Under the pieces are notes generated by a model that did no database searches, was not told where the DNA came from, and worked only from the letters and a program-made list of their open reading frames with translations. A stretch of DNA of 64,000 nucleotides from Deltaproteobacteria bacterium (GTDB lineage: Bacteria > Bdellovibrionota > Bdellovibrionia > Bdellovibrionales > JAMPXM01), in the NCBI GenBank assembly GCA_017302795.1, contig JAFLCB010000002.1, positions 310,001 through 374,000 on the forward strand. The letters are read 5' to 3'. The translations under genes were made by a program, and so were the position numbers. Position 1 is the stretch's first letter. Each line of letters begins with the position of its first letter. This document shows positions 5,617-57,944 of the stretch, piece after piece.

Positions 5617-6357
5617 ATGGCGAGGAACCGGGCCGTCGTAGCGATTTTATTTATTGCTGCTTTCGCCGAGATATTTTCGACATCAGTCGCCATCGCCTCG
5701 TGTCCAGATGGTTTTGCAGAACTCGGATCGGGTAATGCCGGTGATCGCGGCCAGTTTATTTCGCCTGTTTTTGGATCTTACGGCGAAGTCATACTAAGGA
5801 AACTTATTCCTGTAGGTGACGAGCGAGTCGTTGTCTTCATAAATTATCCAGGACTTCGGGCATCTTCTGCCGATCTTGAGATTCACTAAAAACGCCAAGT
5901 CGGTGAACAGATCAAAATTTATAGGCCCAACGAACTAGAATCAATTGAAAACCTCGGATCGATTAACTGCCACGGCTACGCGTGTGCAGTCTCGAATATT
6001 CCCGGATTACCAAATTCTTGGGTCAGAGGTGATGCCACGGAAGTTACAGAAGGAACCAACGCTTTGCGGGCGATTTTAAAGACCTACTTTCGCAAAATTG
6101 ACGAGGTAGAGGCGCCTTTGTTAAGCGAGTTTTTAACTAAAAATGGTTCCGCTCGAGACCAAGACTTTATTACGTTTATTGACCAAAACGGCGTGTTTAT
6201 TCATTCCGGAATTCTAATACCCAATCCGGATCCCAATTCGAAAGGTTTCTGGGTGCGATCTAAATATGCAGCAAATGGAACCTTTGACGCGCCAGTATCG
6301 GCGATAATGAAACTCTATCCTTACACACGATTACAAATTTGGAGACGCCAGCCGTGA
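5617..6357 (+). pseudogene. Secreted protein gene interrupted by one in-frame TAA
   Basis: The first open part (5617-5886) encodes a signal peptide (MARNRAVVAILFIAAFAEIF) and ends in a TAA at 5887-5889. Reading through the stop keeps the same frame open to 6357 for another 155 codons that look fully coding: KRQVGEQIKIYRPNELESIENLGS, then NCHGYACAVSNIPG and FIDQNGVFIHSGIL. The Cys after Asn (NCHGYAC) and the later His (FIHSGIL) resemble the spacing of papain-like or NlpC-like cysteine peptidases, but this is only suggestive. The start ATG has a G-rich tract (GGGGG) directly upstream. Either a recent nonsense mutation or a stop read through in this organism. Confidence 0.6.
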
Positions 6358-6541
6358 CGTGTGAAGCGAAGGTAAGCAGACTCGTAGTGCGCTTCACATT
6401 TCAAAAGACTTCCCGTAAGAAAATCGAAGTCAGTTTTTGTCCTATTTACTGTTCTTGTAAACAGTATGCCCATGTTCACCGTATACCCACTCTTAAAGAG
6501 TTCAGAGTGGGCACCAATATTAAATACCATTGAACAAGAAA

Positions 6542-7027
6542 TCAATTTGTCTGTGGTTCGGCGACAAATGCACAATTTTCGAGTAACAGGTCTTCCACTG
6601 CGAACGTATCGACTCGCGAAAGCAGTGAGCCGGAATCACCTTGAACAGATAAAGTGGAGATCAACTCGCTCGTATCTTTGGGATCAACAGGCGCGTAGCG
6701 ATAGAGATTGAGCTCGGCTGGATCGAAGTCATAAGGCAAGGTCTGCGTCGGGAAAAACCGCTGACCGCCGAACTCATCCGTCAAAACAACCGTCAGAGTC
6801 GCATCCGGCGAAAGCACGCCGTCATAGTCGGCTTCGCCCACGACGACGAGACTGTTCGCCGTTCCAGGAACTGCCGGATCCATCGCTTTCGCCGCACAGG
6901 AGAAAATTTCGACTAAGCCCACGTCGCCACCGCCGATCACTCCACCGCGTGCCGCTGGCGCATTCGAAGCAAACACCGAGGTTCCTGCCGCCACTAACAA
7001 ACTCAAAGCAAAACTAGATTTTTTCAT
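6542..7027 (-). CDS. Secreted protein of unknown function
   Basis: A 161-residue protein beginning MKKSSFALSLLVAAGTSVFASNAPA, a clear Sec signal peptide. The ribosome binding site AGGAA lies shortly upstream of the ATG. The mature protein is acidic and has two cysteines (IFSCAAKAM and LENCAFVAE), probably forming one disulfide; it looks mainly beta-stranded. This N-terminal 'SCAAK' and C-terminal 'ENCAF' layout is seen in small exported proteins but I cannot name a family. It is transcribed away from the TIGR02147 gene, sharing a 190-base divergent spacer with it. Confidence 0.75.
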   Translation of the reverse strand: MKKSSFALSLLVAAGTSVFASNAPAARGGVIGGGDVGLVEIFSCAAKAMDPAVPGTANSLVVVGEADYDGVLSPDATLTVVLTDEFGGQRFFPTQTLPYDFDPAELNLYRYAPVDPKDTSELISTLSVQGDSGSLLSRVDTFAVEDLLLENCAFVAEPQTN

Positions 7028-54609: not shown

Positions 54610-57042
54610 ATGATAAGCATGTCAAATTCGTCGGAAGCGAACTCCAGCCAACCGGCTGTTAAATTAAAGCAAATCAGAAAAAAACGCCTCGTCGCAGGCG
54701 TGGCGTTTTTCGGCGTCGCCGTTCTCGTGGCCGTGGAAATCTATTTGCCCCAGTTGTCGGTTGTAAACTTAGTCGACCTTTCTAACAATGATCAGTTTGC
54801 CTCGATTGCCAGAGTAGTTCAGACCAATGCTGACGTCCGACAGAAGCCAGATAATTTAGACGAATGGTTTCGCGCAGAAACGAATGGAAATGTGGTCAAA
54901 GGTGACGCGATCTATTCTGGCATCAATTCAAGTGCCGACGTGAAAATGAACTCGGGTGCCGAAATTGAAATTCAGGATGAAGTGCTTGTCATATTTGACG
55001 GCGACAATCAGATTTCAATTCCTGATCAGGCTAGGGGCATGGTCCGTCTTCAATTTGAACCTGGCGCAAAGCTTTCGTTTTCTGGTCAAGTGTCACAAGT
55101 TTCCGGCGGAAAGGGAGCCCAATCTTTGGGTGCGGCAATTCTGACCGTGAAAAGTGGAGCGGCCCAAATTTCTACACCTGAAGGTGGATTTCGAAAGTTT
55201 GAACGCGGCGAGAAGATCGAGCTCAATATCAAGATATCAGAAACCAAAATGCTGAAAAGCGTGCCCGTTTCTCGCCAAAGCCTGTCGAAGGCCCGAGGTA
55301 AATCGGTTTCTCCGTCCGCTGTTTCACCAGTTGCAGGTTTTCAAAAGCCGATTCAAGCACCTTCTTTATCGGCTCCCTCTGACTCCGTCGAGTCTGATAC
55401 CACACAAGCAGCAGTGGCAGAGCCAAATCAGCCGGCCCCGATCATCCCTCTTCCGGAGGTCCAGGAGCCCGTTGTTGCGAGGCCTCCGATTCCTACCGAT
55501 GCCGAACACAACCATCACCACGTCTATCTTTTAAAAGAGTTGTATCAAAGGAAAGACAAGCTATTTTTAGAGGCTCGCTCGATGCCAAAGTATGTGCGCG
55601 CGCGCGTGAATTTAACTTGGGCCGACACCCCTGATCGAAAGCCGGGACAAGATGCCGTTATTCAGGTATCGAGTTCCGAGGACTTTTCTAAACCATGGCT
55701 CGAGGGAGTTTCAAAAACTGCAAACCTCGGCCACAGTTCTTGGCCATTGGGCGAAAACTTTTGGCGTGTCTCATATGATAAATTGAATTGGTCTCAGCCC
55801 AAGAAAGTTTCGCTGTCTGCCGACTTTGATCGCGCACGTCGTCCGAAGATTATTTCTCAACAATCCGAGCTTTCGCTTCCGAATGCAGGGCCTTCCCGGC
55901 GAAATAGCAGGACTGTGAAAGTTTCTGCAGATCTCGAGTTTCGTGAGAATGGCAAAGTACCACCTATTGCCTGGGTTCTTCACGCGGCAGACAAAGAAGA
56001 TTTTCATCCGCTCGCCACGAAGATGATTCTTGTCAGCGCTAGGAAGATCAAAATTCCGTTGAAGCGCATTGGTCGTTTTTATTTCCGCGTTCAAGGTGTG
56101 AACAAAGATGGTCAGCTTTCGGGCTATTCGCCGACCAAAGTAGTTTCCGTTGTTGCGCCGAAGATCCCGAAGCCAGAACCGGTCATGCTCCGAGCGGTGG
56201 CAGCCGCAGATGAAGAAGCAATTGCATTGAAGGAAGAAGCGTTACGTCGTGAAGCCGCCCTAAAAGAGCAAGCGCTAAAGCAGGATGAGGCCTTGAGAGA
56301 AGAGTCGCTGCGGCGGGAGGCAAAAGCGAAGTCCGCGGCAGAGCGAAAAGAGCGCAAAGCGATGGCCGTACGTTTAGAACAAGAGCGGGTAGCGAATTTG
56401 GAAAAGCATTATACGAATCGCAATCGATATTGGCATATCGGACTCGAGACTGGGCTTTTTGGCGCGGCGGTCGAGGGTGGAGCCAGCGCGGCTGGTACAT
56501 CCAGTACGAGCCCATCAGCAGGCCCCATCGTCGGCTTCACCGGTGGATTCGACGACGGTCGAAAGTCCGCGCGCGTTTCATATCGGAAGGAGTCGGTCGT
56601 CGATCGACAATCAGTTTCAGGTGATGATCTCGCAGCTTCGCGACTTGATTTGCGCTTTGAATCTTGGCTAAAATTTACGGATAGTATTTTTAAGCGACCG
56701 ATGCGATACGGTTTATTAGGAGGCTATTCACACTATCGAATACCGAGAACAACCCAAGTGACCCAGCCCTTTGATTTGTTCAAAATGGGTTTCGCATTGG
56801 AGTTTGAGGTTGGAGAAAAGTGGCGAACGGGCGGCGATTTTATTATCGGAAAGTGGATTGATTCGAATCAGACGTTCGAAGCCAACGGCTTTTTGAATTA
56901 TGACTACAGTAAGGTGTTCGGCGTAGGGCTTGGCTATAGGCTGAACATATACGATGCTGGCTCTGGCAGCGATGCCGGACTCGGCTCGCCTTACCGTGGC
57001 ATTGTTGGCGAAGCCTATTCCGGATTTCGCTATTCTTTTTAA
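54610..57042 (+). CDS. FecR-domain protein with inner-membrane anchor and barrel-like C-terminus
   Basis: An 810-residue protein. Residues about 27-47 (RLVAGVAFFGVAVLVAVEIYL) form a single membrane segment after a Lys/Arg-rich start, as in an inner-membrane anchor. Residues about 85-200 fit a FecR-type beta domain (VVKGDAIYSGINSSADVKMNSGAEIEIQDE, AAILTVKSGAAQISTPEGGFRKFERGEKI). A Pro-rich linker, Ig-like stretches and a charged helical tract (residues about 540-600, EEALRREAALKEQALKQDE) follow, then about 200 residues of beta strands ending AYSGFRYSF, barrel-like with terminal Phe. So one chain may span both membranes. Start codon choice is not certain. Confidence 0.75.
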   Translation: MISMSNSSEANSSQPAVKLKQIRKKRLVAGVAFFGVAVLVAVEIYLPQLSVVNLVDLSNNDQFASIARVVQTNADVRQKPDNLDEWFRAETNGNVVKGDAIYSGINSSADVKMNSGAEIEIQDEVLVIFDGDNQISIPDQARGMVRLQFEPGAKLSFSGQVSQVSGGKGAQSLGAAILTVKSGAAQISTPEGGFRKFERGEKIELNIKISETKMLKSVPVSRQSLSKARGKSVSPSAVSPVAGFQKPIQAPSLSAPSDSVESDTTQAAVAEPNQPAPIIPLPEVQEPVVARPPIPTDAEHNHHHVYLLKELYQRKDKLFLEARSMPKYVRARVNLTWADTPDRKPGQDAVIQVSSSEDFSKPWLEGVSKTANLGHSSWPLGENFWRVSYDKLNWSQPKKVSLSADFDRARRPKIISQQSELSLPNAGPSRRNSRTVKVSADLEFRENGKVPPIAWVLHAADKEDFHPLATKMILVSARKIKIPLKRIGRFYFRVQGVNKDGQLSGYSPTKVVSVVAPKIPKPEPVMLRAVAAADEEAIALKEEALRREAALKEQALKQDEALREESLRREAKAKSAAERKERKAMAVRLEQERVANLEKHYTNRNRYWHIGLETGLFGAAVEGGASAAGTSSTSPSAGPIVGFTGGFDDGRKSARVSYRKESVVDRQSVSGDDLAASRLDLRFESWLKFTDSIFKRPMRYGLLGGYSHYRIPRTTQVTQPFDLFKMGFALEFEVGEKWRTGGDFIIGKWIDSNQTFEANGFLNYDYSKVFGVGLGYRLNIYDAGSGSDAGLGSPYRGIVGEAYSGFRYSF

Positions 57043-57125: not shown

Positions 57126-57944
57126 TTACCAAGGAGGATGGCTGCCGAGCTCGAGATTTGGATCACGTCCCAAATCCTCAAGCCGTTCCCATTCGCTGGC
57201 TAGAAACTGTCCGACTTCCCCATACGCGCGTGCAAGGGCACTTTGTCTTGTTGAAACATCATTGTTTTCACAAAGCGAATCTGGATCATACGATGCGCCA
57301 GCGCAAATCGCGATTTCGACGTCTGAATCATCCATTGCGTTCAGCCAAGTCTTCACGGGCATAGGCGCTTTGGGGTTCATGGCAGGATCAAAAACGTAGT
57401 ATTCATCGCTGGCAGTCGTTCCTGTGAGGGTCGTAACTTTCGTTATTGCGGCCACATGGTACCACCACTGAACTTCCCCGGCGGGCGAATTGCCCGTGCG
57501 TACATTCAGGTTCCCGAAAGCGAAAATTTTCGCTGTTGGAATGTTGGCAGAGGAAAGAAGTTTTGCAATTACATCGTCCGCGACTGTGGCGCGAACAAAG
57601 CAACCATCGTCAGGGTAGAACCATGTGGCTCGACGTTTTCGAAGGCTGTCGTCGGTGAAGGCTTTCTCGTCTCGCACAAGTTCGAAACTCGCTTGTAGAT
57701 CGCGTTCCAGCATAAGTGGGACACGGTTCCAGGCTGCTTTGTCGAAAGATGACTTCGCCCAGACGACCGGACCGACGCCAAGCTGTTTGTTGGCCGGCGG
57801 CCGACTTCGCCCTTTGGCCGCGCGGACGAAGAACTCTGCGGCAACTCCCGGGGGGCGGTGGGCCGAGGAACTGGCTGATCCAGCCGATGTCGTAAACAGC
57901 ATGGCGAAGGTTAGCAAAGCTGAAAGCAGGGGGCGGTGAAGCAT
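57126..57944 (-). CDS. Probable secreted protein-glutaminase (deamidase)
   Basis: From ATG 57944 (TAGGAG upstream) the protein has a signal peptide (LLSALLTFAMLFTTSAGSASS) and then the pattern of protein-glutaminase, a Cys protease-like enzyme that deamidates protein glutamine residues: WFYPDDGCFVRATV with Cys about residue 115, QWWYHVAAITKV with His about 163, and EYYVFDPAMNPKAPM with Asp about 186. Order and spacing match the Cys-His-Asp triad of that family. No propeptide boundary is obvious. A periplasmic or secreted enzyme acting on other proteins. Family call is by motif. Confidence 0.75.
   Translation of the reverse strand: MLHRPLLSALLTFAMLFTTSAGSASSSAHRPPGVAAEFFVRAAKGRSRPPANKQLGVGPVVWAKSSFDKAAWNRVPLMLERDLQASFELVRDEKAFTDDSLRKRRATWFYPDDGCFVRATVADDVIAKLLSSANIPTAKIFAFGNLNVRTGNSPAGEVQWWYHVAAITKVTTLTGTTASDEYYVFDPAMNPKAPMPVKTWLNAMDDSDVEIAICAGASYDPDSLCENNDVSTRQSALARAYGEVGQFLASEWERLEDLGRDPNLELGSHPPW

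Follow-up and report, generated by a model that had tools for sequence, protein, structure and literature searches.

The locus and its product

In the stretch of Bdellovibrionota DNA analysed here (the window, 64,000 nucleotides), a minus-strand open reading frame with its ATG at 57944 and a stop codon ending at 57126 encodes a protein of 272 amino acids; the first-pass annotation had given no strand. The features of this gene are collected in Table 1. A signal-peptide-like pattern of the same kind is visible by eye in the sequences of relatives, and because no cysteine precedes residue 115, the predicted export would proceed without a lipobox and the product would not be a lipoprotein. The two conserved cysteines near the C-terminus may be joined by a disulfide once the protein is in the envelope or beyond the cell.

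Table 1. Features of the protein-glutaminase family gene and of one neighbouring gene, in window coordinates (A1 and A2, subfamily alignments described below)
Feature	Position	Strand	Basis or remark
Coding sequence, 272 aa, protein-glutaminase (PF18626) family	57126..57944	-	stop codon included
Probable Sec signal peptide, residues 1-24	57873..57944	-	by eye, from a hydrophobic core and an AGSA|SS cleavage site
N-terminal segment of the exported protein, residues 25-73	57726..57872	-	precedes the part matching mature protein-glutaminase
Conserved S-x-x-R motif S27-A28-H29-R30, proposed active-site plug	57855..57866	-	conservation and model alignment
PF18626 Gln_deamidase_2 match, residues 84-204	57333..57695	-	profile search
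Putative catalytic Cys115 codon	57600..57602	-	raw-sequence codon and alignments A1, A2
Putative catalytic His163 codon	57456..57458	-	raw-sequence codon and alignments A1, A2
Putative catalytic Asp186 codon	57387..57389	-	raw-sequence codon and alignments A1, A2
Conserved Cys pair, Cys214 to Cys225	57270..57305	-	C214 in at least 90% of rows, C225 in 32/32 rows (A1)
C-terminal signature L-G-x-x-P-P-W, residues 266-272, subfamily mark	57129..57149	-	alignments A1, A2
810-aa protein, FecR-like and outer-membrane-barrel-like	54610..57042	+	by eye

The gene stands alone and is divergent from rlmN, with rlmN and a PfkB kinase gene upstream and genes for proteins of 810 and 226 amino acids, both lacking a Pfam match, downstream. 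The rlmN side is conserved in the genus, while the Bdellovibrio-like loci share another stable neighbourhood and Legionella has its own; recurrent neighbour genes were found only within the genus, the Bdellovibrio-like group, Legionella and a few other close sets. In two same-genus relatives the gene for the 810-residue protein is absent beside the PF18626 gene. A conserved operon or an immunity partner was considered and rejected, as the gene sits between housekeeping genes. One study (PMC10318531) notes Dot/Icm genes close to those that code for PF18626 proteins.

Family assignment and predicted fold

The protein matches PF18626 (Gln_deamidase_2) with an E-value of 5.9e-25 and 88 bits against a curated cut-off of 25, covering profile positions 2-106 of 106, and this is the only PF18626 match in the genome, which thus holds no paralogues. 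A search of PDB sequences with the single protein returned five protein-glutaminase chains (E 1.3e-7 to 7.3e-7), and the profile of alignment A2 likewise returned five, with a best E-value of 3.7e-22. The equivalog family NF040782 (PG_glutam_Chrys, NCBIfam) scored 41.6 bits, far below its 250-bit cut-off. In the HMMER alignment with 2zk9, C115, H163 and D186 fall on the Cys, His and Asp of that enzyme, and this triad is invariant in all 32 rows of A1 and all 42 rows of A2. The first-pass annotation had placed the three residues at about these positions, and the numbering proved exact, with C115 in YPDDGCFVRA, H163 in WWYHVA and D186 in YVFDP.

It had also called for a comparison of structures, and this bore out its assignment. 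An AlphaFold2 model of residues 25-272, built from 42 alignment rows, had a mean pLDDT of 92.2 and a pTM of 0.91, and a Foldseek search of the PDB with this model yielded six chains at E<=0.001, all of them protein-glutaminases. With VIA-align, the solved protein-glutaminases gave Z-scores of 15.0-15.7, including the pro-enzyme 3a56_B (Z 15.7, rmsd 4.1, 183 aligned residues), 8z3i (15.6), the mature enzyme 2zk9 (15.5, rmsd 2.8, 155 aligned) and 3a54_A (15.4), against 6.5 for the next-best chains, those of NTAQ1. A second model, of the orthologue from Bdellovibrio bacteriovorus kdesi (pLDDT 94.3), was built from alignment A3, which combines the kdesi and window proteins with 31 other pattern-scan loci; it matched protein-glutaminases at Z 14.8-16.2 and other structures at 6.9 at most, and the two models are not independent, because most alignment rows are common to both. 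Identity to the Chryseobacterium proteolyticum enzyme was 22-28% when the two models were aligned with it by structure. The L-G-x-x-P-P-W signature lies outside the region aligned with solved protein-glutaminases, as the structure alignments stop at model residue 227-231.

On this evidence it is highly likely that the gene product is a protein-glutaminase-type enzyme. The proposal of a secreted protein-glutaminase is thus upheld for the enzyme type by family, fold and triad, and for export by a signal peptide judged by eye, so that the gene very probably encodes a predicted exported enzyme converting glutamine to glutamate in other proteins.

The closest characterised system is the C. proteolyticum protein-glutaminase (EC 3.5.1.44; PDB 2zk9, 2ksv, 3a56, 3a54), with which the window protein has in common PF18626, the Cys-His-Asp triad, the fold, a signal peptide and an N-terminal segment aligning with the pro-peptide from about residue 44. 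The S-x-x-R motif and an additional C-terminal LG..PPW set the window protein apart. Enzymes of EC 3.5.1.44 act on glutamine side chains within proteins rather than on free glutamine. The Flavobacterium sp. 316 enzyme FBPG (PDB 8z3i) is alike in fold, including the pro-segment (Z 15.6 for the window model and 16.2 for the kdesi model), but both FBPG and the Bacteroides helcogenes enzyme PGB have a long pro-peptide and come from another phylum.

A short N-terminal segment

The alignment with mature 2zk9 begins at model residue 50, equivalent to residue 74 of the gene product, which leaves about 49 amino acids between the cleavage site judged by eye and the part matching the mature enzyme. By comparison, the pro-sequences reported in the excerpted text of PMC9396377 and PMC6132073 comprise 114 residues in C. 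proteolyticum (PMC6132073), 118 in C. cucumeris and 108 in B. helcogenes, so the segment falls well short of the 108-118 residues of a long pro-sequence. In all six pro-enzyme alignments of the window and kdesi models the segment holds one register, with model residue 1 or 2 aligning with pro-residue 44 or 45 of 3a56_B and 3a54_A and with residue 63 or 64 of 8z3i. The first ten residues were modelled with a mean pLDDT of 90 in the window model and 93 in the kdesi model. As the alignment gives the ends of ranges, placing S27-A28-H29-R30 on pro-residues 46-49, with A28 on 47, presumes an ungapped alignment over the first residues. The A47Q mutant of the Chryseobacterium pro-enzyme is deposited as PDB entry 3a54. 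Residue 47 of this pro-peptide is reported to reach into the active site, where it would mimic the substrate.

The arginine of the motif, R30, is invariant in the 32 rows of A1 and the 42 rows of A2, and the serine is present in at least 90%. By simple pattern, S-x-x-R occurs in 84 of 97 rows, some of which represent one gene in two collections; the 13 rows lacking the pattern include some that are partial or of another architecture. Since the segment aligns in two models with the part of the pro-peptide holding residue 47, we consider the odds a little better than even that it acts as a short built-in active-site plug.

The second position of the motif in the 84 rows is Ala in 59, Ser in nine, Pro in eight and Gln in eight, two of the Gln rows having an identical sequence around the motif. 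Gln at this position, found at loci L126, L125, L116, L105, L103 and L099, is a candidate self-deamidation site. The idea of self-deamidation arises because such S-Q-x-R rows occur, in both Legionella and Bdellovibrionota, and it would depend on the modelled position of the segment.

A conserved subfamily

In a tree of 90 proteins, which excludes unfetched matches below the Pfam cut-off and a contig-edge copy in genome G017, the window protein falls in a branch of 37 rows with an SH-aLRT support of 100, drawn from 36 genomes and thus nearly one row per genome. Alignment A1 holds 32 of these 37 rows, four near-copies and one divergent row being excluded. In addition, a scan with two peptide patterns, using one genome per species, yielded 60 loci, of which 41 form alignment A2 together with the window protein. 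Of the 19 loci excluded, ten were incomplete, disrupted or differently built, six began with GTG or TTG, one contained ambiguous letters, one had its start misplaced, and for one (L110) no reason was stated. Both alignments display the marks of the subfamily, namely S-x-x-R after the signal peptide, RD..., RR.TW.YPDDGC, the cysteine pair and the terminal LG..PPW.

Among 98 relatives from the organism's own order, PF18626 was detected at E<=0.001 in 56 genomes and above the cut-off in 53. Across the phylum, 212 of 368 genomes have PF18626 at E<=1e-5, with as many as 12 matches per genome, and the subfamily itself, defined by the A2 profile at E<=1e-45, is present in 70 of the 368 genomes and 33 of 181 genera, usually in single copy. 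The expansion of PF18626 to as many as 12 putative protein deamidases was observed in genus g104, family f12. None of the 14 control genomes of each family search contained PF18626 above the cut-off. Members of genus g19 cluster with B. bacteriovorus kdesi in the protein tree; of the 24 PF18626-bearing genomes of g19, 22 have a subfamily match and two lack one at E<=1e-45. No PF18626 match was found in one same-genus genome, G001, which is 88% complete. The gene is therefore not essential everywhere.

The pattern-scan loci are mostly from Bdellovibrionota; those beyond it belong mainly to Legionella and other Gammaproteobacteria, with one in Ca. Uabimicrobium amorphum, a phagocytic planctomycete. 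Four loci from gammaproteobacterial metagenome-assembled genomes (L122, L139, L144 and L147) show a different architecture, with the domain at the C-terminal end of longer frames, which measure 461-505 amino acids in L122, L139 and L147 and end at the locus edge in L144. In Legionella norrlandica (L149, about 5935-6764) the subfamily gene is split over two overlapping frames, so it is broken or misassembled in this strain.

In a tree that left out seven of the 60 pattern-scan loci, the Legionella rows group inside the Bdellovibrionota rows, with most deep forks unsupported. This scattered phylogeny suggests old transfers of the gene between lineages. A recent mobile gene was also considered and rejected, with no match among 72,556 plasmid records and no viral structure at E<=0.001. 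Nine of ten close pairs, seven of them from the subfamily, had dN/dS values of 0.016-0.096, and in the tenth pair, the window protein with its nearest relative, synonymous sites were saturated. The close pairs are therefore under strong purifying selection, and the protein is kept for what the protein does. This conserved subfamily, common in Bdellovibrio and its relatives, forms a distinct branch, little noticed so far, of an enzyme family already known.

Relation to the predatory lifestyle

The long form of tryptophan dioxygenase is a reported marker of obligate predators in the excerpted text of PMC4646340, and the form called long here, from the profile positions matched, is presumably the same marker. 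The 98 genomes of the order divide into 66 with a long form, 10 with a short or fragmentary one and 22 without the enzyme; the split between long and short is clear across the order and may mark predatory lineages. PF18626 exceeds the cut-off in 48/66 genomes with the long form, 2/10 with the short form and 3/22 with none (48/66 vs 5/32, kinship ignored), and the subfamily is present in 34/66, 1/10 and 1/22, respectively. Small genomes tend to be without both PF18626 and the long dioxygenase. In these genome counts as in the comparison by genus, G026 was counted as short on two fragments only and the subfamily copy of G017 was not counted. When genera were scored by majority, the proportions were 21/31 vs 5/22 for PF18626 (Fisher p 0.002, kinship ignored) and 13/31 vs 2/22 for the subfamily (Fisher p 0.013, kinship ignored).

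As the window's genome carries the long form, a predator lineage is plausible for this organism, in keeping with the first-pass annotation, which had presumed one. Two further genes do not discriminate, because they occur in nearly all relatives searched: the type II secretion system (T2SS) secretin, detected in this genome at 563.7 bits and in 39 of 39 genomes, and the mevalonate gene for HMG-CoA reductase, also present here and found in 37 of 39, which led us to reject it as a predator marker. Action of the predicted enzyme on prey is plausible, and that prey or host proteins are its main targets is a tentative proposal, to which we give somewhat less than an even chance. The first-pass annotation had offered prey or own envelope proteins as possible targets, and chaperoning, toxin action and nutrition as candidate roles.

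Proposed mechanism and alternative explanations

The reading we favour, and consider fairly likely, is a Sec-exported protein-glutaminase with an N-terminal plug, most likely used on foreign proteins during attack. Export is inferred here from the signal peptide judged by eye, and the catalysis, target and timing that follow are inferred as well. After removal of the signal peptide, residues 25 to about 73 would fold back, placing S27-A28-H29-R30 along the cleft of the active site in the position of a protein substrate. Until this segment is cleaved or pushed aside the enzyme would have little activity, an effect like that of the longer Chryseobacterium pro-peptide. Cys115, activated by His163 and Asp186, would then attack the side-chain amide of a protein glutamine, ammonia would leave and water would release glutamate. 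In a Bdellovibrio-type cell, foreign proteins met in attack would become more acidic, more soluble and more open to digestion. For B. helcogenes PGB, the pro-form is partly active and activity rises about 17-fold after removal of the pro-peptide, according to the excerpted text of PMC13139226.

A role in nutrition only, in which the exported enzyme would release nitrogen from proteins already under digestion and loosen them, would agree with the secretion of characterised members and their action on many food proteins, as described in the excerpts of PMC9396377 and PMC13139226, and with the T2SS secretin in the genome. The conserved S-x-x-R and LG..PPW, specific to the subfamily, may nevertheless point to something beyond a generic digestive enzyme, and we regard this role as possible but unlikely. 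Somewhat less likely again is a housekeeping role in the envelope, with the cell's own periplasmic or outer-membrane proteins as the substrates of deamidation and no part in predation. The single copy, the strong purifying selection in the subfamily, the stable place beside rlmN and the PfkB kinase gene in the genus with no toxin-like neighbours, and the presence of the subfamily in one of the ten genomes with a short dioxygenase would all fit such a role; against it stand the many relatives without the subfamily (70 of 368 phylum genomes have it at E<=1e-45), its scattered occurrence in Legionella and Ca. Uabimicrobium, and the growth of the wider family to 12 matches in one genome.

It is improbable that the protein is another papain-fold enzyme, such as a cysteine protease, a transglutaminase or an N-terminal amidase. 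NTAQ1, SseI, LapG and transglutaminases do share the triad and core at Z-scores of about 4 to 7, but protein-glutaminases reach about 15-16 against at most 6.9 for the rest, and the Pfam family matches. Human NTAQ1, the N-terminal glutamine amidohydrolase, is alike in core fold, triad and glutamine deamidation, with a fold match of Z 6.0-6.9 over the two models that lies below the level the alignment tool calls clear; it is not known to act on any but N-terminal Gln, nor to be secreted. Papain-fold bacterial effectors such as SseI are alike in core fold and triad (Z about 5) but are injected and not known to carry a signal peptide. A dead enzyme, for instance a scaffold or binding protein, is very improbable; some distant paralogues are altered at triad columns, which would favour it, but the triad is invariant in 32/32 and 42/42 subfamily rows.

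The exported, plugged enzyme acting on foreign proteins can be extended to a more specific picture, which we put forward as quite unlikely speculation: Bdellovibrio and its relatives would hold in their attack kit a separate, usually single-copy deamidase, a short-plug zymogen opened at invasion that rewrites prey glutamines, and S-Q-x-R members could deamidate their own plug as a one-time switch.

Significance

The enzyme family is already known, and what is new here is a conserved protein-glutaminase subfamily, for which no report was found in the open-access literature. The first-pass annotation had remarked that it had not seen action of such an enzyme on prey or own envelope proteins described, and our searches agree: no open-access paper was found that pairs protein-glutaminase with Bdellovibrio, titles or abstract openings of open-access papers on Bdellovibrio with deamidase or glutaminase yielded nothing on such an enzyme, and the open-access literature on PF18626 or near names held no mention of Bdellovibrio. 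Known protein-glutaminases are used in food processing, and the short-plug branch could therefore be a practical enzyme source. Should the favoured reading hold, predatory bacteria would have protein deamidation among their chemical tools, a use absent from the open-access literature searched, and the presence of the subfamily in both Legionella and a phagocytic planctomycete would tie deamidation to life inside or on other cells.
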